Below are positions 5,468 through 32,154 of a DNA stretch of 64,000 nt, in pieces. This DNA comes from Mesorhizobium loti R88b. Lineage in GTDB: Bacteria > Pseudomonadota > Alphaproteobacteria > Rhizobiales > Rhizobiaceae. The notes under the pieces were generated by a model, which made no database searches, was not told where the DNA came from, and was given only the letters and a program-made list of their open reading frames with translations. Where the stretch lies: the NCBI RefSeq assembly GCF_013170845.1, contig NZ_CP033367.1, positions 4,341,001 to 4,405,000 on the forward strand. Direction: 5' to 3'. How positions within the stretch are numbered: the first letter of the stretch is position 1; each line of letters opens with the position of its first letter. Made by a program: the position numbers and the translations under genes.

Positions 5468-8272
5468 TTGACCGACCAAAAAACACCGCGCGGCGCCGAC
5501 GGCGGCCCTACCGGCATCGAGCCCATCTCCATCATCGAGGAGATGCAGAACTCCTATCTCTCTTACGCCATGAGCGTGATCGTGAGCCGTGCGCTGCCCG
5601 ATGTGCGCGACGGCCTGAAGCCCGTGCATCGCCGCATTCTCTACGCGGCGCATGAGAGCGGCTACCACTGGAACCGCAAATATGTGAAGTCGGCGCGCCC
5701 TGTTGCCGACGTGATGGGTAAATACCATCCGCATGGCGATGCCTCGATCTACGACGCCTTGGTGCGTATGGCGCAGGACTGGTCGCTGCGCGTACCGCTG
5801 ATCGACGGGCAGGGCAATTTCGGCTCGATCGACGGCGATCCGCCGGCGGCAATGCGCTACACCGAATCGCGGCTGACCAAGGTCGCGCATGAGCTTCTGG
5901 AGGATATCGACAAGGATACCGTCGATTTCCAGGACACTTATGATGCCTCGGATACCGAACCCAAGGTTCTGCCGGCACGCTTTCCCAATCTGCTGGTCAA
6001 CGGCTCCGGCGGCATCGCCGTCGGCATGGCCACCAACATCCCGCCGCACAATCTGGGCGAAGTCTGCAACGGCGCCATCGCTGTCATCGACAATCCGGCG
6101 ATCGACCTGCCGGCGCTGATGGAGATCATTCCGGGGCCTGATTTCCCGACCGGCGGCATCGTGCTTGGCCGTTCCGGTATTTACAGTGCCTATTCGACCG
6201 GCCGCGGCTCCATCGTCATGCGCGGCAAGGTCAACATCGAGGCGCGCGGCAATGACCGCGAGTCGATCATCATCACCGAAGTTCCCTATCAGGTGAACAA
6301 GTCGTCGATGATCGAGAAGATGGCCGAACTGGTGCGCGACAAGCGCATCGAGGGCATTTCCGACATTCGCGACGAGAGCGACCGCCAGGGCTATCGCGTC
6401 GTCATCGAGCTGAAGCGCGATGCGGTTGCCGACGTCATCCTCAACCAGCTTTACCGTTTCACGCCGCTGCAGACCTCCTTCGGCGCCAATATGGTGGCGC
6501 TGAACGGCGGCAAACCTGAAGTGATGAACCTGACCGACATCCTGAAGGCTTTTGTGTCCTTCCGCGAGGAGGTCATCACAAGGCGGACGAAATTCCTGCT
6601 GCGCAAGGCGCGCGACCGCGCCCATGTGCTGGTGGGCCTCGCCATCGCCGTCGCCAATATCGACGAGGTCATCAAGCTGATCCGCACCGCGCCCGATCCG
6701 CAGACGGCGCGCGAGCAGTTGATGGAGCGGCGCTGGCCGTCCGGCGATGTCGAATCGCTGATCCTTCTGATCGACGATCCGCGCCACCGCATCAATGAGG
6801 ACGGCACCTACAATCTGTCCGAGGAACAGGCGCGCGCCATCCTCGAACTGCGCCTGCAGCGCCTGACCGCGCTCGGCCGCGACGAAATCGCCGACGAGCT
6901 GAACACGATCGGCGACGAGATCAAGGATTACCTCGACATCCTGTCGTCGCGCGCGCGCGTCCAGCAGATCGTCAAGGACGAACTCGCCGCCGTGCGCGAC
7001 GAGTTCGGCACGCCACGCCGCACCGAGCTCACCGACGGCGGCGCGGACATGGAAGACGAGGACCTGATCCAGCGTGAGGACATGGTCGTGACGGTTAGCC
7101 ATTCGGGCTATATCAAGCGCGTGCCACTGTCGCTTTACCGGGCGCAACGCCGTGGCGGCAAGGGCCGCTCCGGCATGTCGACCAAGGAAGAGGATTTCGT
7201 CACCAGGCTGTTCGTGGCCAATACCCACACGCCGGTGCTGTTCTTCTCCTCGCGCGGCATCGTCTACAAGGAAAAGGTCTGGCGGCTGCCGATCGGCAAT
7301 CCGCAGTCACGCGGCAAGGCGCTGATCAACATGCTGCCGCTGGAGCAGGGCGAGCGCATCACCACCATCATGCCGCTGCCCGAGGACGAGACCAGCTGGG
7401 GCGAACTCGACGTGATGTTCGCCACCACGCGCGGCACCGTACGCCGCAACAAGCTGTCCGATTTCGTTCAAGTCAACCGCAACGGCAAGATCGCCATGAA
7501 GCTGGAGGAGGAGGGCGACGAGATTCTCGGCGTCGAAACCTGCACCGATAATGACGATGTGCTTTTGACCGCCAGCTCCGGCCAGTGCATCCGCTTCTCG
7601 GTCGGCGACGTGCGCGTCTTCCAGAGCCGCAATTCTGTCGGCGTGCGTGGTATCACCATGGCCGAGACCGACCGCATCATCTCGATGTCGGTGATCGAGC
7701 ATGTCGATGCGCCGCCGGCCGAACGTGCCGCCTATCTCAAGCGGGCTGCGACCGAACGGCGGACTGCCGCCGGTATCGCGGCCGGCGAAGAGGAAGAGAT
7801 CGCGCTGACCAATGAAGAGGTCGGCGAGGAGACAGAGCTTTCCGACGAGCGCTATGAGTTCCTCAAGGCACATGAGCAGTATGTGCTGACGGTGACCGAA
7901 TATGGCTACGGCAAGCGCTCTTCGTCTTACGATTTCCGCCTGACCGGCCGCGGCGGCAAGGGTATTCGCGCCACCGACGTGTCGAAAGTGGCGGAGATCG
8001 GCCGGCTGGTGGCGACTTTCCCGGTCGGCAATGATGACCAGATCATGCTGGTGTCGGACGGTGGCACGGTCATTCGGGTGCCGGTCAACGGCATCCGTTT
8101 TGCCAGCCGCGCCACGAAGGGCGTGACCATCTTCAACACGGCTGAAGGTGAGAAGGTTGTGTCGGTCGAGCGGATCTCGGAGCCGCAGGCGGACGAGGAA
8201 AGCGACGAGGCCGTCGAGGGTGGCGTTGAGCCTGGTCTGGAGACCGATACTGGTCCGGACAGCGCTGAGTAA
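5468..8272 (+). CDS. gyrA: DNA gyrase subunit A
   Basis: A 934-residue GyrA, the breakage-reunion subunit of gyrase, which works with GyrB to add negative supercoils. The N-terminal winged-helix/tower region carries the catalytic Tyr131 in [10 protein letters not shown], and the GyrA box QRRGGKG is at 560-566 at the start of the beta-pinwheel. The quinolone region reads [13 protein letters not shown], so the residue equivalent to E. coli Ser83 is Ala92 while Asp96 (Asp87) is kept. The start is a TTG. The protein is longer than E. coli GyrA (875) because of an acidic insertion around 755-790 in the C-terminal domain and an acidic tail, both usual in alphaproteobacteria. Confidence 0.97.
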
Positions 8273-9825: not shown

Positions 9826-10338
9826 ATGGCTGAGATCAAGGACCGCGAGAACGCGCTCATCCTGGAAACGACCAAGGGCAAGGTCGTCATCGAACTGTTC
9901 CCCGATTTGGCTCCCGGCCATGTCGCCCGCATCAAGGAACTGGCCAGGGAAGGCGCTTATGACGGCGTGGTTTTCCACCGCGTCATCGACGGCTTCATGG
10001 CGCAGACCGGCGACGTGAAGTTCGGCAATTCGAGCAAGCCCACCTTTGCTCCGTCCCGCGCGGGCATGGGCGGTTCCGAGAAGCCGGACCTGAAGGCCGA
10101 GTTCTCCAACGCCAACCATGGCCGCGGCACCTGCTCGATGGCCCGTTCGCAGAACCCGAACTCGGCCAATTCGCAGTTCTTCATCTGCTTCGACGATGCC
10201 GCCTTCCTCAACCGCCAGTACACGGTCTGGGGCCAGGTGATCGAAGGCATGGACAATGTCGACAAGATCAAGCGCGGCGAGCCGGTGGTCGATCCCGACA
10301 AGATCGTGTCGCTGAAGGTCGCGGCCGACGTCAAGTAA
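9826..10338 (+). CDS. Peptidyl-prolyl cis-trans isomerase, cytoplasmic cyclophilin
   Basis: A 170-residue cyclophilin without a signal peptide, so cytosolic, in contrast to its neighbour. FHRVIDGFMAQTGD and SANSQFFICF carry the catalytic and binding residues, and the fold runs the whole length. The start ATG at 9826 follows AGAAGGA with good spacing. Paired exported/cytosolic cyclophilin genes in tandem are common in rhizobia. Precise folding clients are unknown. Confidence 0.93.
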   Translation: MAEIKDRENALILETTKGKVVIELFPDLAPGHVARIKELAREGAYDGVVFHRVIDGFMAQTGDVKFGNSSKPTFAPSRAGMGGSEKPDLKAEFSNANHGRGTCSMARSQNPNSANSQFFICFDDAAFLNRQYTVWGQVIEGMDNVDKIKRGEPVVDPDKIVSLKVAADVK

Positions 10339-10350
10339 GGTAGAACGACA

Positions 10351-10800
10351 ATGATGGGCGTCGTCTGGTCGCTTCTCGGCATCCTGTCCGGCGCCTTCAT
10401 TGCCATTCAGGCCCCGATCAACTCGCAGCTGGCGCGCGGCCTGGGTCTCCCGGTCGCGGCGGCTGCGTTTTCGTTCTTTTCGGGTGCGGTCGTGCTCGGC
10501 ATTATCTCCGTCACGGTGGTGAAGCTGCAAGGCATCACGCTCGACTGGAAGGCGCCAGCGTCCTGGCTGTTCGTCGCTGGCGGCATGCTCGGCGGCTTCT
10601 ATGTGACGCTCTCCACAATCCTGACGCCGCGCATCGGTGCCGCCGCGCTGATGGCGTTCCTGGTGGCCGGCCAGCTGCCGGCAGGCATGCTCATCGACCG
10701 TATCGGCTTCATCGGCGTCGCGGTGCGTGAAATCTCGCTCGGCCGCATCGCCGGCGCGGTGCTGCTCTTGGCCGGAGCGCTGCTCGTCCGGCTCTATTGA
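10351..10800 (+). CDS. YdcZ/DUF606-type DMT membrane protein
   Basis: A 149-residue hydrophobic protein with about five helices. It resembles the DUF606 (YdcZ) half-size members of the drug/metabolite transporter superfamily: [19 protein letters not shown] near the N terminus, [20 protein letters not shown] in the middle. Half-size DMT proteins generally dimerise in the inner membrane. Substrate is unknown. Its TGA shares one base with the queA ATG (TGATG), so translation of queA is probably coupled to it. Confidence 0.8.
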
Positions 10801-14591: not shown

Positions 14592-14828
14592 ATGAAGGCG
14601 TTTTTCGTGCAGATCAAATGCGAGCTGGGCAAATCCTATGAGGTCGCCAGCGCGCTTGCCGATGCCGAGATCGCCTCGGAAATCTATTCCACCGCGGGCA
14701 ACTACGACCTGCTCGCCAAATTCTACGTCGATGATGAGGAAGATGTCGGCCACTTCGTCAACGAGAAGGTGCAGATTCTCCCCGGCATCAAGGATACGTT
14801 TACGGTCGTCACGTTTCGCGCCTTCTAG
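14592..14828 (+). CDS. Stand-alone Lrp/AsnC ligand-binding (RAM) domain protein
   Basis: A 78-residue protein that covers only the RAM domain of Lrp/AsnC regulators, with no helix-turn-helix. It reads MKAFFVQIKCELGKSYEV at the start and TAGNYDLLAKFYV in the centre, the motif that binds amino acids at dimer interfaces. Stand-alone RAM proteins may modulate full-length Lrp proteins or sense effectors themselves. It is monocistronic by position: 81 bases after the DsbA-like gene and about 165 before the Anbu operon. Confidence 0.85.
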   Translation: MKAFFVQIKCELGKSYEVASALADAEIASEIYSTAGNYDLLAKFYVDDEEDVGHFVNEKVQILPGIKDTFTVVTFRAF

Positions 14829-14886
14829 CCAGGGAACCTACCTGCCTGGGCGTCGGGCAAAGCCTGACCAAGGTCATGTTTCTCGT

Positions 14887-14901
14887 GCCTAAATTTTAGG
14901 C
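14887..14901. promoter_or_regulatory. Perfect palindrome upstream of the Anbu operon
   Basis: GCCTAAATTTTAGGC is a perfect 15-base palindrome (7-base arms, one central base), 93 bases upstream of the likely ATP-grasp start at 14994. It has no T tail, so an operator for a dimeric regulator is more likely than a terminator. Confidence 0.5.
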
Positions 14902-14993
14902 AGCCGAAACATACTGATCGCCCGCTTCCTCCAAATCACCGATTGCGCTTGATTTTCTCCGGCGACGCCATTGAAATGGTGTCACAGGGGAGT

Positions 14994-16412
14994 ATGCGAT
15001 TGGCAGCGTTTGATGAAATGCTTCCGGAAGTCTCCGGATTGAGAAGACCGTATTCGGCTTATGACCGCTGGCTGAAGGAGCAGGATCCAGCCAGGCTTAC
15101 CGAGAAGATGCAGGATGCCGAACGCGTCTTCCGCAAGACCGGCATCACCTTCGCCGTCTATGGTGAGCAGGAAGCCTCCGAACGGCTGATTCCGTTCGAT
15201 ATCGTTCCACGCATCATTTCAGGCAATGAGTGGCGGCGCCTGACGCAAGGCATCGAACAGCGCGTGCAGGCGCTGAATGCCTTCCTCGACGATATCTACC
15301 ATCGTCAGGAGATACTGCGCGCCGGCCGCGTTCCCAGGGACCTGATCGCCAAGAACGAGGCTTTCCTGCCTGAGATGATCGGGGTGCGGCCGCCGGCCGG
15401 CGTCTACACCCACATCATCGGCGTCGATATCGTGCGCATCTCAGAGGACGAGTTCTATGTCCTGGAGGACAATGCCCGCACGCCGTCCGGTGTCTCCTAC
15501 ATGCTTGAGAACCGCGAGACGATGATGCAGCTGTTCCCCGAGCTGTTCCAGAAGATCAAGGTTCGCCCGGTGGAGAACTACCCGCAGCTCTTGCGCCAGT
15601 CGCTGGCGGCGGTTCGTCCGCAGAGCACCAAGGGCGCGCCGACCATCGCCGTGCTGACGCCTGGCAGTTTCAACTCGGCCTATTTCGAACATGCCTTCCT
15701 GGCCGACCAGATGGGCGTGCAACTGGTCGAGGGCCAGGACCTGCGCGTCGTCGACGGCCATGTCGCGATGCGCACGACCGAAGGCTACAAGCAGATCGAC
15801 GTGCTCTACCGCCGCGTCGATGATTCCTACCTCGACCCGCTGACCTTCAGGCCCGATTCGGCTCTTGGCATACCGGGCATCATGGATGTCTACCGCGCCG
15901 GCAACATCACCATCGCCAACGCGCCGGGCACCGGCATCGCCGACGACAAGGCGATCTATTCCTACATGCCCGAGATCATCGAGTTCTACACCGGCCGCAA
16001 GGCGATCCTCGGCAACATCCCGACCTGGCGCTGCTCGGAGCCGGACAGTCTGAAATATGTGATCGAGCACATCCACGAACTGGTGATCAAGGAAGTGCAT
16101 GGTTCCGGCGGCTACGGCATGCTGGTCGGGCCGGCAGCGACCAAGAAGGAATGCGAGGCGTTCGCCAAGAAGCTGGCGGCAAAGCCTTCGAACTATATCG
16201 CCCAGCCGACACTGGCGCTGTCGACCTGTCCAATCTTGACGGAAAAGGGCCTGGCGCCGCGCCATGTCGATCTCAGGCCCTATGTGCTGGTCTCCGACCG
16301 CATCCAGATCGTGCCGGGCGGACTGACGCGCGTCGCGCTCAAGGAAGGCTCGCTGGTGGTGAACTCGTCGCAGGGCGGCGGCACAAAGGACACATGGGTG
16401 CTGGATGATTGA
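14994..16412 (+). CDS. Circularly permuted ATP-grasp protein (COG2308) of the Anbu operon
   Basis: A 472-residue protein of the circularly permuted ATP-grasp type 2 family. Recognisable blocks are MRLAAFDEMLPEVSGLRRPY at the start, GVYTHIIGVDIVRISEDEFYVLEDNARTPSG (phosphate/metal-binding loop region), GIADDKAIYSYMPEIIEFY and IKEVHGSGGYGMLVGP near the C terminus. ATP-grasp enzymes join carboxylates to amines; this clade is predicted to make peptide-like bonds. Starts at 14943 (TTG) and 14976 are also in frame; 14994 is preferred because AGGGGAG abuts it, though spacing is short. The alpha-E gene follows 21 bases later. Confidence 0.87.
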   Translation: MRLAAFDEMLPEVSGLRRPYSAYDRWLKEQDPARLTEKMQDAERVFRKTGITFAVYGEQEASERLIPFDIVPRIISGNEWRRLTQGIEQRVQALNAFLDDIYHRQEILRAGRVPRDLIAKNEAFLPEMIGVRPPAGVYTHIIGVDIVRISEDEFYVLEDNARTPSGVSYMLENRETMMQLFPELFQKIKVRPVENYPQLLRQSLAAVRPQSTKGAPTIAVLTPGSFNSAYFEHAFLADQMGVQLVEGQDLRVVDGHVAMRTTEGYKQIDVLYRRVDDSYLDPLTFRPDSALGIPGIMDVYRAGNITIANAPGTGIADDKAIYSYMPEIIEFYTGRKAILGNIPTWRCSEPDSLKYVIEHIHELVIKEVHGSGGYGMLVGPAATKKECEAFAKKLAAKPSNYIAQPTLALSTCPILTEKGLAPRHVDLRPYVLVSDRIQIVPGGLTRVALKEGSLVVNSSQGGGTKDTWVLDD

Positions 16413-16433
16413 TTTTCATTTGAAGGGGTTTGG

Positions 16434-17375
16434 ATGCTTTTAGGCCGGACCGCCAACGGGCTTTACTGGATGAACCGCTATATCGAGCGGGCGGAAAACA
16501 TGGCGCGGCTGGTCGACGCGGGGCTGCGCATGGCGCTGACCCGCACCCAGAGCGCTTCGGAAGAGTGGAATTCGGTGCTGCTCAGCGCCGGCTCCGATGT
16601 CACCTTCAAGCAGAAGCATTCGGAATACACGGCCGCCAACGTGTCCGATTTCCTGCTGCGCGACACATCGAACCCGTCGAGCACGATGTCGTCGATCGAG
16701 ACGGCCCGCAACAACGCCCGCATGGTGCGCACCGCGCTGACGCGCGAGACATGGGAAAGCATCAACGAAGCCTGGATGTCATTGAAGCGGATGCTGGCCA
16801 GGCCGATTGACGAGCGCGACCTGCCAAGCGTGCTCGACGCGATCAAACGCGAGACGGCCCTCATCCGCGGCTCGTTCTACGGCACCATGCTGCGCAACGA
16901 GATCTTCGACTTCTCGCAGCTCGGCACCTATGTCGAGCGCGCTGACAACACCGCGCGCATCCTCGATGTGAAATATTACGTGCTGTTGCCTTCAATTTCC
17001 TGGGTTGGTTCGACGCTCGACAACTATCAATGGGAATCGATCCTGCGCTCTGTGTCGGCGCATCGCTCCTACCGCTGGGTCTACGATGCCGACTACAAGC
17101 CGACCAACATTGCCGACTATCTCATCCTCAATGTCCGTATGCCGCGTTCGCTGACCTTCTGCTACCGCTTCCTGTCGGAACATCTGAAATTCCTCAGCGA
17201 CGACTACGGCGAACATCACGCCTGCCACGCTACAGTCGAAAGGACACAGGCGATGCTGAGGGCTGGGTCGATCAAGAACATATTCGACACCGGCCTGCAC
17301 GAATTCCTTGCCAACTTCATTCAGGACAACACCAAGCTCGGCGACGAGATCGCGCAAGATTACCGGTTCAATTGA
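16434..17375 (+). CDS. Alpha-E domain protein (COG2307) of the Anbu operon
   Basis: A 313-residue all-helical protein that starts MLLGRTANGLYWMNRYIERAENMARLVD, the typical opening of the bacterial alpha-E family. It has no predicted catalytic motif. In many genomes it is encoded beside the permuted ATP-grasp gene or fused to it, so it is thought to be its structural partner. It lies 21 bases after that gene. Its TGA stop is built partly from the first two bases of a palindromic repeat (17374-17422). Confidence 0.88.
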   Translation: MLLGRTANGLYWMNRYIERAENMARLVDAGLRMALTRTQSASEEWNSVLLSAGSDVTFKQKHSEYTAANVSDFLLRDTSNPSSTMSSIETARNNARMVRTALTRETWESINEAWMSLKRMLARPIDERDLPSVLDAIKRETALIRGSFYGTMLRNEIFDFSQLGTYVERADNTARILDVKYYVLLPSISWVGSTLDNYQWESILRSVSAHRSYRWVYDADYKPTNIADYLILNVRMPRSLTFCYRFLSEHLKFLSDDYGEHHACHATVERTQAMLRAGSIKNIFDTGLHEFLANFIQDNTKLGDEIAQDYRFN

Positions 17376-17422
17376 GCATGATCCCGAAAAGTGGGCTCCG
17401 GTTTTCGGGCGAGATCATGCTC
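17374..17422. repeat. Rhizobial palindromic intergenic repeat (RIME/REP-like)
   Basis: GAGCATGATC (17374-17383) and GATCATGCTC (17413-17422) are perfect inverted arms, with a central CCGAAAA/GGTTTTCGG complementarity. From memory, elements with this GAGCATGATCCCGAAAAGTG opening recur in intergenic regions of Mesorhizobium and relatives. It lies inside the Anbu operon and contributes to the stop codon of the alpha-E gene. Confidence 0.7.
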
Positions 17423-17439
17423 ACAAACGGAAAATAGAT

Positions 17440-18234
17440 ATGCGGCTCAAGATCACCCACCGGACCGAATACCGCTACGATGCGCCGGTGCAATATCTGC
17501 TGCAGCGGCTGCGGCTGCTTCCGGTCAGTGGATCGACGCAGACCGTCCTGTCCTGGGCGCTGACGATCGAAGGTGCACGCGAAGAGGTTCGCTTTGTCGA
17601 CCATTTCGGCAACGACACAAGGCTGTTGAGTGTCGAAGGCGAACGCGATTTCATCACCGTGGAGGCGGCCGGCGAGGTGGTGACACGCGACACCGCGGGC
17701 GTTTCCGGTCCGCATCAAGGCTTCACGCCGCTCTGGCTCTACAGCCATGAAACGCCATTGACCGCGATCGGCGATGGGATTCGCGAACTCGCCGCATCGA
17801 TCGGCAAGGGAACCGATATTGAACGGCTTCACCGGCTGATGGCTGTCATCGGCGAGCGTGTGATTTACACGCCCGGTACCACCAATGCGGCGACGCCGGC
17901 CGAGCAGGCCTTGGCGCTCAAGACCGGTGTCTGCCAGGACCACACCCATATTTTCGCAGCCGCGGCGCGCGCAATGGGCTTTCCGGCCCGTTACGTCAGC
18001 GGCTATTTGATGCTGGACGCGACGGTCGAACAGGCGGCAAGCCATGCCTGGGCCGAAGCACACGTCGTTGGCCTGGGCTGGGTCGCCTTCGACGCCGCCA
18101 ATGGCATCTCGCCCGACGAGCGCTACGTGAAGGTGGCCACTGGCCGTGACTATCGCGACGCCACGCCGGTGTCGGGAATTCGACTGGGACAGGCGGAAGA
18201 ACAGCTTGCGGTCACGGTCACGGTAGAGCAGTAA
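17440..18234 (+). CDS. Transglutaminase-like protein (COG1305) of the Anbu operon
   Basis: A 264-residue protein with an N-terminal beta domain (MRLKITHRTEYRYDAPVQYL) and a C-terminal transglutaminase-like papain fold. The catalytic triad is visible: Cys in LKTGVCQDHTHIFAAAARA, His in AASHAWAEAHV and Asp in WVAFDAANG. In bacteria such domains act mostly as cysteine peptidases or amidases. The start at 17440 is the only one giving the family-typical N terminus. The Anbu gene follows 31 bases later, and the repeat element separates it from the alpha-E gene. Confidence 0.9.
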   Translation: MRLKITHRTEYRYDAPVQYLLQRLRLLPVSGSTQTVLSWALTIEGAREEVRFVDHFGNDTRLLSVEGERDFITVEAAGEVVTRDTAGVSGPHQGFTPLWLYSHETPLTAIGDGIRELAASIGKGTDIERLHRLMAVIGERVIYTPGTTNAATPAEQALALKTGVCQDHTHIFAAAARAMGFPARYVSGYLMLDATVEQAASHAWAEAHVVGLGWVAFDAANGISPDERYVKVATGRDYRDATPVSGIRLGQAEEQLAVTVTVEQ

Positions 18235-18265
18235 TCCGGCAAGGATTGCCGCCAGAAGAGATTCC

Positions 18266-18997
18266 ATGACTTATTGCGTCGGGCTCAAGATCGATCGCGG
18301 GCTCGTGTTCATGTCGGACACGCGCACCAATGCCGGCATGGATTCGATCTCGACCTTCAAGAAGATGCATGTCTGGGAAGAGCCCGGCGAGCGCGTCATC
18401 GTCTTGATGTCGGCCGGCAATCTGGCGACGACGCAGGCCGTGGTCAGCCTGCTCGAAGAGCGCACGAAAGCCGTGGCGGACCGCCGCGCGACACTGCTTG
18501 AAACGCCATCCATGTATCAGACGGTTCGGCTGGTCGGCGACACGGTCAAAGAGGTGATCGCGCATTCGTCGCCCGCCGGAGAGAAGGCCGATTCCTATTT
18601 CAACGCCTCCTTCATCCTGGGCGGCCAGATCAAGGGCAGCCCGCCACGGCTGTTCATGATCTATCCCGAGGGCAATTTCATCGAATCGACCGACGACACG
18701 CCGTTCTTCCAGATCGGCGAGACCAAATACGGCAAGCCGATCATCATTCGTGCCTACGAAAAGACGATGAGCCTCGCCGAGACTGTGAAGCTGCTGCTGG
18801 TATCGTTCGATTCGACGCTGAAATCGAACCTGTCGGTCGGCTTGCCGCTTGATCTGCTGTTCCTGGAGAAGGACGCTTTCAAAGTCGGCCTGAAGAAACG
18901 CATTGGCCAGGACGACCAGTACTACCGGACGATCTCCGATGGTTGGTCGAACGCGTTGAAGACGGCCTTCGCCAGCCTGCCGGATTTCCCGGGGTAG
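18266..18997 (+). CDS. Anbu proteasome-like peptidase
   Basis: A 243-residue Ntn-hydrolase of the Anbu (ancestral beta subunit, COG3484) class. The sequence begins MTYCVGLKIDRGLVFMSDTRTNAG: removal of Met exposes Thr as the N-terminal nucleophile, and the GLVFMSDTR block holds the conserved Asp. A Lys expected about 30 residues in is offered by TFKKMHVW. Anbu proteins of other bacteria form open helical assemblies rather than closed rings. It closes the ATP-grasp/alpha-E/transglutaminase run, the usual company of Anbu, which suggests that the ligase marks or makes a peptide that the peptidase handles. Confidence 0.9.
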   Translation: MTYCVGLKIDRGLVFMSDTRTNAGMDSISTFKKMHVWEEPGERVIVLMSAGNLATTQAVVSLLEERTKAVADRRATLLETPSMYQTVRLVGDTVKEVIAHSSPAGEKADSYFNASFILGGQIKGSPPRLFMIYPEGNFIESTDDTPFFQIGETKYGKPIIIRAYEKTMSLAETVKLLLVSFDSTLKSNLSVGLPLDLLFLEKDAFKVGLKKRIGQDDQYYRTISDGWSNALKTAFASLPDFPG

Positions 18998-19089: not shown

Positions 19090-20505
19090 ATGGACAACGA
19101 GCAATTCCGCGATTGGTCAAGGCGCGCCGCCGACTGGGGCGCCGATTACCGCGCCGGCCTTCGCGATCGACCTGTAAGACCTGCCATCACGCCGGGCGAC
19201 ATATTCAGGAGCATCGAAGCTTCTCCGCCGGAGACGGCCGAACCGATGGAAAAGATTTTCGCCGACTTCGAGGAGAAGATCGTGCCGGGGATGACGCATT
19301 GGCAGCATCCGCGCTTCTTTGCTTACTTCCCGGCCAACGCGGCGCCCGTCTCGGTGGTGGCCGAGTACCTGGTCTCGGCAATGGCTGCGCAATGCATGCT
19401 TTGGCAGACGTCGCCGGCGGCAACAGAACTCGAAACGCGCATCATCGACTGGATGCGTCAGGCGCTCGGCCTGCCCGAAGGTTTTTCCGGGGCGATCCAG
19501 GATTCTGCGTCTTCGGCGACACTCAACGCCGTACTGACCATGCGCGAGCGTACACTCGACTGGCAAGGCAACAAAAAGGGACTGGCCGGGCAGCGGCGCT
19601 TGCGCATCTACTCCTCGGATCAGGTGCACACCTCGATCGACCGGGCGATCTGGGTTTCGGGCATCGGCGAGGACAATCTGGTGCGCATTCCGGTCTCCGG
19701 CCGTTTTCGCGCCATGGATACCGCAGCCCTGGAAGCAGCCATCATCGCCGACCGGAAAGCCGGCCTGCTGCCGGCTGGCATCATCGCTTGCGTCGGCGGC
19801 ACCAGCACCGGTGGCACGGACGACATTGCGGCCGTCGCTGATGTCGCCAGGCGGCACGGCCTCTACCTCCATGTCGACGCGGCCTGGGCCGGATCGGCGA
19901 TGATCTGTCCGGAATACCGACATTTCTGGACCGGTGTCGAAGGCGCTGATTCGATCGTCTTCAATCCGCATAAATGGCTCGGTGCGCAGTTCGACTGCTC
20001 GATCCAGTTCCTGCGCGATCCCGAAAGCCATGTCAGGACGCTGGCCATCAAGCCGGACTATCTCAGGACTCACGGCCATGACGGCATCATCAACTATTCC
20101 GAATGGTCGGTGCCGCTTGGCCGCCGCTTCCGCGCCTTGAAATTGTGGTTCCTGCTGCGTGCGCACGGACTGGAAAACCTGCGCACCATGATCCGCAACC
20201 ATGTCGCCTGGAGCGAGGGCCTTGCCGCACGGCTGGCAAGGGAGACGGATTTCGAGATCGTCAGCGAACCGATGCTGTCGCTGTTTTCGTTCAGGCACAA
20301 GGCGGCTCCAAGCGCTGACGCCGACGAGCACAATTTGCGGCTGGTCAATGCGATCAACGACGATGGCCGTATCTACCTGACGCAGACGAGGGTCGATGGC
20401 CATGTGGCAATCCGCTTCCAGGTCGGCCAGTTCGAGGCAACGGCGCAAGATGTCGCTGCAGCCTTCGATGTGATTTGCGAGCGCGCAAGATCACTTGTCC
20501 CCTGA
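19090..20505 (+). CDS. PLP-dependent amino acid decarboxylase (group II)
   Basis: A 471-residue member of the aromatic-L-amino-acid/tyrosine decarboxylase family. The PLP lysine is Lys295 in NPHKWLGAQFDCS, and the pyridine-N aspartate is in YLHVDAAWAGS. The N terminus has PGMTHWQHPRFFAYFPAN, matching substrate-pocket residues of aromatic amino acid decarboxylases. It probably decarboxylates an aromatic amino acid (Tyr, Phe, Trp or DOPA), but specificity cannot be fixed. ATG at 19090 follows GGGAGGAC. It stands between the Anbu operon and an orphan and appears monocistronic. Confidence 0.9.
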   Translation: MDNEQFRDWSRRAADWGADYRAGLRDRPVRPAITPGDIFRSIEASPPETAEPMEKIFADFEEKIVPGMTHWQHPRFFAYFPANAAPVSVVAEYLVSAMAAQCMLWQTSPAATELETRIIDWMRQALGLPEGFSGAIQDSASSATLNAVLTMRERTLDWQGNKKGLAGQRRLRIYSSDQVHTSIDRAIWVSGIGEDNLVRIPVSGRFRAMDTAALEAAIIADRKAGLLPAGIIACVGGTSTGGTDDIAAVADVARRHGLYLHVDAAWAGSAMICPEYRHFWTGVEGADSIVFNPHKWLGAQFDCSIQFLRDPESHVRTLAIKPDYLRTHGHDGIINYSEWSVPLGRRFRALKLWFLLRAHGLENLRTMIRNHVAWSEGLAARLARETDFEIVSEPMLSLFSFRHKAAPSADADEHNLRLVNAINDDGRIYLTQTRVDGHVAIRFQVGQFEATAQDVAAAFDVICERARSLVP

Positions 20506-32078: not shown

Positions 32079-32154
32079 GAGCGCGTAGCTCAGCCGGTAG
32101 AGCAACTGACTTTTAATCAGTAGGTCATGGGTTCGAATCCCATCGCGCTCACCA
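32079..32154 (+). tRNA. tRNA-Lys (anticodon UUU)
   Basis: The 76 bases fold as a cloverleaf: acceptor GAGCGCG/CGCGCTC, D arm GCTCAGCCGGTAGAGC, anticodon stem ACTGA/TCAGT with loop CTTTTAA (anticodon TTT), T arm ATGGGTTCGAATCCCAT, discriminator A and an encoded CCA. It reads AAA and AAG lysine codons. There is no integrase nearby, so no sign of use as an integration site. Confidence 0.97.

Follow-up and report, generated by a model that had tools for sequence, protein, structure and literature searches.

A predicted NtrC-type operator upstream of the Anbu operon in Mesorhizobium loti R88b and its relatives

The Anbu operon of Mesorhizobium loti R88b was analyzed in a stretch of 64,000 nucleotides (NZ_CP033367.1, positions 4,341,001 to 4,405,000; G000:C1:4341001-4405000 in our numbering), referred to below as the window; the genome as a whole, G000, is a single contig of 7.2 Mb. 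Four genes follow one another on one strand in the order ATP-grasp, alpha-E, transglutaminase-fold and Anbu, and a palindrome ahead of them resembles sites that precede nitrogen-assimilation genes. This operon, of the Anbu-1 type, probably belongs to the NtrC nitrogen-status regulon, the first three genes (the trio) carrying out amide chemistry and Anbu acting as an accessory Thr hydrolase. The parts of this interpretation that can be read directly are the gene content, the intact active sites, the operator resemblance and the asymmetric occurrence of the genes. The features concerned are as follows.

14843..14859, no strand: distal TGCC-N9-GGCA, possible second NtrC half-site pair, its centre 43 bp upstream of that of the main palindrome
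14886..14902, no strand: main palindrome TGCCTAAATTTTAGGCA, predicted NtrC-type operator (matrix score 29.9; nitrogen-gene company of matching sites)
14948..14977, plus strand: promoter-like core CTTGA-N19-TGAAAT, predicted start near 14984
15000..16412, plus strand: circularly permuted ATP-grasp gene (CP_ATPgrasp_2, PF14403, 7.2e-167); TTG start preferred, TTG 14943 or ATG 14994 possible
16434..17375, plus strand: alpha-E gene (Alpha-E, PF04168, 5.4e-93)
17440..18234, plus strand: transglutaminase-fold gene (Transglut_core, PF01841, 4.4e-24; Bact_transglu_N, PF08379, 4.1e-21) with Cys165-His202-Asp218
18266..18997, plus strand: Anbu gene, Anbu-1 type (Proteasome, PF00227, 5e-8), with Thr1 after Met removal, Asp17 and Lys32

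The first-pass annotation of this DNA had pointed to an upstream palindrome belonging to the operon and had left its nature unexplained. The palindrome is real: a perfect core, TGCCTAA-ATT-TTAGGCA (14886-14902), lies within a wider imperfect dyad (14876-14912) whose 18-nt arms, 14876-14893 and 14895-14912, are 83% complementary, and the pattern TGCCTNAATNTTAGGCA occurs at one exact place in the genome. Comparison of upstream regions gave TGCCYAA-N3-TTRGGCA, which is also found ahead of the ATP-grasp gene in other families. When 65 + 62 genomes were scanned, 21 symmetric matches were not beside an ATP-grasp gene, and 20 of these were examined (G288:C5 was left out). Fifteen of the 20 stood directly upstream of nitrogen genes: glnK-amtB (5), glnB-glnA (3), dusB-ntrB (5), urtA (1) and ureD (1). 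Pfam matches on reference copies were to P-II, ammonium transporter, glutamine synthetase, Dus, histidine kinase, periplasmic binding protein and UreD; the names dusB, ntrB and urtA are our own reading beyond the Pfam level. No nitrogen-assimilation gene adjoined the other five sites (L143-L147). The NtrC regulon core in Proteobacteria comprises glnA, amtB, glnBK and ntrBC, with urease and urea transport added in some taxa (PMC5343134, cited from excerpts, as are PMC7801951, PMC3325844, PMC10746234, PMC5491218 and PMC6376114 below). Because the gene company of the motif matches this core, the consensus itself not being taken from a paper, we infer that 14886-14902 is an NtrC-type operator.

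A scoring matrix was built from the 15 nitrogen-gene sites, none of which lies beside an ATP-grasp gene or comes from the R88b genome. The window site scored 29.9, the next best place in the 64 kb 9.4 (20 bits lower) and the best place in 20 shuffled windows 15.3. The value of 29.9 is partly built in, since the 15 sites were chosen by palindrome likeness; their gene company is not. Within the R88b genome, sites weaker than that of the window were found at glnK (19.9), glnB (18.0) and a glutamine synthetase gene taken as glnII (19.2 and 18.0). With up to two mismatches the palindrome occurred at five other places in this genome, against five strand matches for a reversed control pattern. The counts alone therefore show no regulon; the neighbours do, since two of the five places precede glnK and the glutamine synthetase gene.

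Conservation was followed in two sets of loci, drawn partly from the same genomes: 19 Anbu-operon loci from a genus sample, and 80 loci from named relatives (77 of them Mesorhizobium; best Anbu identity, 99%), of which the 78 complete ones were used, L252 and L281 being left out for genes missing at contig ends. The 300 bases upstream of the ATP-grasp gene were scanned once per genome, a shuffle null (99%, 10.6; maximum, 18.2) setting the threshold; loci with no ATP-grasp start available (L109, L119, L125, L126, L129, L130, L210 and L213) and the paralogue loci L088-L090 were left out of the counts. The threshold was exceeded at 15 of the 19 same-genus loci with Anbu, and 76 of the 78 complete relative loci scored above 18.2. 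Outside the genus, 26 of 89 same-class operons had a site above the threshold (binomial p 1e-30), at positions -73 to -186 relative to the start, and nine of the 26 exceeded the null maximum. In the phylum sample described below, 55 genomes of the same order or class carry the ATP-grasp gene; all were examined, and 15 had a site above the threshold. On its resemblance to the sites of nitrogen-assimilation operons, the window operator would place the operon in the NtrC regulon.

The main site was accompanied by the distal one in 55 of the 78 loci, at a spacing of 42-43 bases in 51 of the 55, and YGCC-N9-GGCR stood near the place of the main site in 77/78. The distal copy is weak evidence alone, because this loose pattern occurs 45 times in the window; of the 15 nitrogen-gene sites, only 3 had a second copy nearby.

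Several NtrC-like sites with other neighbours were also recorded. In the R88b genome one, scoring 19.9, lies where the two genes of a histidine kinase/response regulator pair meet (L132, G000:C1:222606) and another, scoring 21.5, precedes a GntR-aminotransferase gene (L136, G000:C1:5171939). In G309 and G160, two genomes related to each other, the perfect palindromic 17-mer precedes a gene of 621-627 amino acids, uvrC by eye (L145 and L147), unlike the usual nitrogen genes.

Iyer et al. are said to have predicted the operon in 2009. Its conserved order and the idea of a peptide tag are likewise already published (PMC6376114; PMC5666114), and structures of Anbu followed in 2017. In Pseudomonas putida the operon PP_2685-PP_2688, which like that of the window contains proteasome-beta-like and transglutaminase genes, was assigned to NtrB/NtrC and is induced by nitrogen limitation; PP_2686-PP_2688 rose under nitrogen limitation alike in wild-type, rpoN and relA/spoT strains (PMC7801951). 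By gene order, PP_2687 and PP_2688 would be alpha-E and ATP-grasp. The Mesorhizobium operon differs in having an operator of TGCC-N9-GGCA type and no sigma-54 site. The Burkholderia cenocepacia cluster I35_5080-5083 (I35_5080-83), NtrC- and sigma-54-dependent, shares DUF404/DUF407 (read as ATP-grasp), DUF403 (alpha-E) and transglutaminase-like domains, and differs in its large transglutaminase-like protein and in that Anbu is not named in the excerpts of that source (PMC5491218). Our literature search found no report of NtrC control of the Anbu operon in rhizobia. Within the limits of the literature searched, these points are new: the presence of the operator in Mesorhizobium and in further members of its class, the lack of a sigma-54 site, the asymmetry of the gene counts and the clade that lost Anbu.

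A number of results weigh against assigning the operon to the NtrC regulon. The 15 training sites were picked by palindrome likeness, with no control set of unlike sites, and they are not all independent: all come from other genomes of the class, several from one family or genome (three from G202, two each from G164 and G323). The dusB-ntrB promoter of R88b itself scored 8.0 only. Below the threshold were 63 of the 89 same-class operons outside the genus, all eight operons outside the class, all three same-genus loci without Anbu, and four of the 19 same-genus loci with Anbu, among which L064, L068 and L076 branch early and L063 has its main site partly deleted. The window operon has no sigma-54 site (6/12). 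Sites also precede the Anbu-less operons of G123, G183, G326, G222 and G358, so NtrC-type control would not be Anbu-specific. From the literature, PP_2685, the Anbu gene of P. putida, changed 1.12-, 4.81- and 1.45-fold only in one data set (PMC7801951), being up 11.1- and 4.0-fold in another (PMC3325844), and no activity is known for Anbu according to the excerpts of PMC6376114.

The genes themselves fitted the first-pass description of a complete four-gene operon. All four matched Pfam families on a single strand; the gaps, put earlier at 21-64 bases, measured 21, 64 and 31 bases for gene starts at 16434, 17440 and 18266; and the Cys-His-Asp triad proposed for the transglutaminase was invariant in 11/11 aligned proteins. 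As read from sequence, the window operon is a real, intact representative of an already known operon kind. The closest solved structure by sequence was PDB 3n6x for the ATP-grasp protein (E 3.6e-196) and 3isr for the transglutaminase-fold protein. Alpha-E had no sequence relative in PDB at E values up to 10, and its AlphaFold model, built from 34 near-identical sequences, had a mean pLDDT of 49. The ATP-grasp gene probably starts at TTG 15000, since this codon was kept in 19/19 aligned same-genus loci, compared with 9/19 for ATG 14994. AGGGGAG is well spaced ahead of TTG 15000, and the reading frame from TTG 14943 is broken by indels among relatives.

Anbu begins Met-Thr-Tyr-Cys, which agrees with the N-terminal Thr after Met removal that had been proposed, and matched five solved Anbu sequences (5loy, 5nyj, 5nyf, 5nyw and 5lox; E 1.7e-66 to 6.5e-96). 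Asp17 and Lys32 (mature numbering) were invariant in 21/21 aligned Anbu proteins and Thr1 was present in 20, with Ser in the remaining one. These three residues are common to the Anbu-1 subfamily, with structures from Pseudomonas aeruginosa, Hyphomicrobium, Yersinia bercovieri and others, from which the window protein differs by ordinary sequence divergence. Its S1 pocket (T20, F30, S48, L52 and T55, compared with T20, F30, T48, L52 and S55 in Pa-Anbu; PMC5666114) is of the amphiphilic Anbu-1 kind and not the basic Anbu-2 kind. Anbu shares the Ntn-hydrolase family PF00227 with HslV and the 20S proteasome beta subunits. The window protein fell below the NCBIfam archaeal proteasome models (22-26 bits against cut-offs of 219-287), and its best score with a curated proteasome model, 25.9 bits against a cut-off of 224, was too low for HslV/20S membership.

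The occurrence of the genes was asymmetric. In a phylum sample of 299 evenly drawn genomes, Anbu was present in 102 and an ATP-grasp match in 156, one of these matches, in the incomplete genome G224, being probably a fused paralogue (E 9e-67). The ATP-grasp gene was carried by 101 of the 102 Anbu genomes (sole exception, G171), and 55 of the 156 ATP-grasp genomes were without Anbu (Fisher p 2e-37, related genomes counted separately). Anbu lay within 10 kb of the ATP-grasp gene in at least 84/102 genomes, and in 76 of those 84 the ATP-grasp gene was upstream on the same strand. Among the remaining 18, seven had an ATP-grasp gene more than 200 kb away on the same contig among the matches listed, six had the two genes on different contigs, in four the ATP-grasp position was outside the matches listed, and G171 had none. 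In the genus sample Anbu was found in 46/49 genomes. The three without it (G005, G268 and G271) form one clade (support 100/100) and keep the genes for the Lrp domain, ATP-grasp, alpha-E, transglutaminase and pyridoxal phosphate (PLP)-dependent decarboxylase in order. In this clade the ratio of nonsynonymous to synonymous substitution rates (dN/dS) was 0.007-0.019 for ATP-grasp, 0.014-0.024 for alpha-E and 0.057-0.097 for transglutaminase, at dS 0.49-0.87; the trio is under purifying selection. In another part of the family, G338, G123 and G326 have the trio without Anbu, and in G183 ATP-grasp and alpha-E are followed by the contig end. Because of the 101/102 and 55/156 counts and the Anbu-less clade with its constrained trio, Anbu is best described as accessory, being more dependent on the trio than the trio is on Anbu. 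The earlier view of the four genes as a set holds in that they were in order in 78/78 complete relative loci, so that close relatives do not have them widely separated. The set can nevertheless be divided, as the trio without Anbu in G005, G268, G271, G338, G123 and G326 shows.

Taking operator and gene content together, NtrC would bind the dyad at 14886-14902, and possibly the one at 14843-14859 as well, and bound NtrC would set the activity of the sigma-70-like promoter at 14948-14977. The operon would then follow nitrogen supply, most likely going up when nitrogen is scarce. The ATP-grasp enzyme with alpha-E may act on a peptide or protein by forming a bond of amide or isopeptide type, the transglutaminase-fold enzyme may move or cut such bonds, and Anbu would be an accessory Thr hydrolase downstream of the trio.

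According to the published tag model, proteins receive a peptide tag through the ATP-grasp, alpha-E and transglutaminase-fold enzymes, and Anbu either removes the tag, like a deubiquitinase, or degrades the tagged proteins. The close upstream placement of the ATP-grasp gene described above (at least 84/102 genomes, 76 of those 84) and the presence of two amide-bond enzyme folds beside an Ntn hydrolase speak for it, as does the binding of epoxomicin and MG132 to Thr1 of Pa-Anbu (PMC5666114). On the other hand, 55/156 genomes retain the ATP-grasp gene in the absence of Anbu, indicating that Anbu is not invariably required for a removal or degradation step, and the excerpts of Vielberg et al. (PMC6376114) report that peptidase activity was not detected in the Anbu members tested and that the operon proteins formed no specific complex. 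The Y. bercovieri ATP-grasp protein released phosphate from ATP (PMC6376114). Fuchs et al. considered a role in peptide synthesis less likely and favoured protein degradation (PMC5666114). The prediction cited in the first-pass annotation, that the set makes and removes a peptide tag, is one of several published ideas, neither proved nor refuted; we regard the tag model as possible and lean away from it.

Regulation by NtrC could also be negative. The promoter-like core at 14948-14977 resembles the sigma-70/32 type. Its pattern CTTGM-N18-20-TNNNAT, chosen after these leaders had been viewed, stands about 50 nt before the start in the window; it was shared by 78/78 distinct leaders from the genus and its near kin, and by 19/30 other leaders (shuffled rates, 0.001 and 0.000). 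Sigma-54-like scores in the R88b genome were 11/12 for glnII, 10/12 for glnB and 9/12 for glnK. Ahead of the operon in the 78 relative loci the score was 9/12 in one and at most 8 in the other 77, and sites of 11/12 were found before the operon in the relatives L190, L200 and L123. The NtrC of R88b carries GAFTGA, the motif of sigma-54 activators. Because there is no sigma-54 site at the operon though NtrC has this motif, activation may not be the mode, and NtrC may either raise or lower transcription. NtrC might hold the operon down in Mesorhizobium, by analogy with NfeR1 in Sinorhizobium meliloti, where NtrC represses a promoter lacking sigma-54 signals (PMC10746234); the NtrC dyad without a sigma-54 site, the conserved sigma-70-like core and the GAFTGA motif would all suit such an arrangement. 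The dyad, however, is centred some 90 bp ahead of the predicted start, a long distance for simple repression, and the P. putida operon genes rise under nitrogen limitation (PMC7801951), which leaves repression rather doubtful.

A third proposal, that Anbu degrades bulk protein non-specifically in nitrogen starvation and that the trio is a separate, co-regulated amide-salvage system, would be served by NtrC-type control, by the induction in P. putida under nitrogen limitation (PMC5666114; PMC7801951; PMC3325844) and by the seven of 102 Anbu genomes whose ATP-grasp gene, among the matches listed, is more than 200 kb away on the same contig. We consider it unlikely: even so, 101/102 Anbu genomes carry the ATP-grasp gene, which argues for a functional tie between the two, no unfoldase partner is known (PMC5666114), and no peptidase activity was detected according to the excerpts of PMC6376114.

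That the palindrome is an RNA hairpin, as a leader element or a terminator of the Lrp gene, and not a DNA operator is very improbable: a 182-nt leader stretch containing the dyad as a hairpin does fold better than 200/200 shuffles (z -3.5), but no T-run follows the palindrome, and the same 17-mer stands ahead of many nitrogen genes and, where the Lrp gene was not detected, at variable distances before ATP-grasp (L104, L114 and L116). An RNA leader hiding the start codon was also considered and is less likely than a promoter, to which the conserved segments are better suited; these segments are found again in other genera where the stem is missing.

Two further features lie beside or within the operon.

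14592..14828, plus strand: lone Lrp/AsnC ligand-binding domain gene (PF01037, 1.5e-12)
17373..17423, no strand: dispersed palindromic repeat in the alpha-E/transglutaminase gap, an inverted repeat that is not operon-specific

The lone Lrp/AsnC domain gene, described earlier as lying just upstream, is real, has no match to a helix-turn-helix domain, and was found on the same strand 145-419 bases upstream of the operon in 78/78 loci. The order queA, tgt, Lrp domain, ATP-grasp, alpha-E, transglutaminase, Anbu held in 19/19 same-genus loci. In loci of other families (L104-L108 and L111-L118) no Lrp gene was detected beside the operon. Since it is retained where Anbu is lost, the Lrp gene would be a genus-level syntenic neighbour rather than a demonstrated operon part. 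The AA-N3-TT centre of the palindrome, with its likeness to an Lrp/AsnC operator, and the presence of this gene had raised the idea of an Lrp-type site; it was dropped, as matching sites precede nitrogen genes and occur where the Lrp gene was undetected. Downstream, a PLP-dependent decarboxylase gene (19090-20505) begins 92 bases after Anbu and follows it in 16/19 same-genus loci. The 17-mer AGCATGATCNNGAAAAG of the repeat in the 64-base gap occurs at 13 places genome-wide. The short spacing between ATP-grasp and alpha-E is not conserved, the gap being about 470-505 bases in L062, L066 and L091.

Irregular loci were noted as well. Anbu of L070 (G015, about 9869-10593) is split by a frameshift into pieces 1-209 and 198-242, the other operon genes matching over their length, and may be a pseudogene or an assembly error; in L073 (G030, 6568-7984) the ATP-grasp matches fall in two overlapping, frameshift-like pieces. 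In L128 (G361) and in G179 the two genes do not form one operon: about 200 bases separate Anbu from ATP-grasp, which is encoded on the other strand. G389 and G319 have two Anbu genes each, and the Anbu copies at L109 (G389:C4) and at L125 and L126 (G319) had no ATP-grasp match within the 20 kb examined. A second locus of the R88b genome (L098, G000:C1 2441000-2460900, about 2.45 Mb) resembles the operon in having an 803-amino-acid frame with alpha-E and ATP-grasp matches and transglutaminase matches on both sides; it differs in that its ATP-grasp is a distant paralogue (29% identical), and Anbu was not detected there. Transfer of the operon from Rhodobacterales-like donors had been suggested by identities of 59-66% in some other families of the class against 44-49% in many members of the same order, and was weakened by the presence of Anbu in 67/109 genera of a family sample, where identity was graded and reached 87% outside the genus. 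A tRNA-Lys (ttt) gene at 32079-32154 was the sole ARAGORN match, and the sole Rfam match at gathering score, in the window.

The literature, which offers solved structures of Anbu, yet holds no substrate or activity (PMC5666114 and the excerpts of PMC6376114), agrees with the first-pass statement that its substrate is still to be found. The operator, present in most of the Mesorhizobium relatives examined and ahead of 26/89 other operons of the class, indicates when to look: under nitrogen limitation, and perhaps as free-living cells become established in the nodule, in which silencing of NtrBC has been reported (PMC10746234). A more speculative reading, to which we give little weight, is that the alphaproteobacterial Anbu operon is a nitrogen-economy device and not one of protein quality control, controlled by NtrC through a promoter that does not use sigma-54. 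The trio would make and remodel an amide-linked peptide conjugate serving as a store or carrier of nitrogen, and Anbu would be an optional hydrolase for its release; if so, clades without Anbu would keep the store and empty it in another way. The Mesorhizobium clade that lacks Anbu offers a natural control, by which the role of the trio may be told apart from the role of Anbu.

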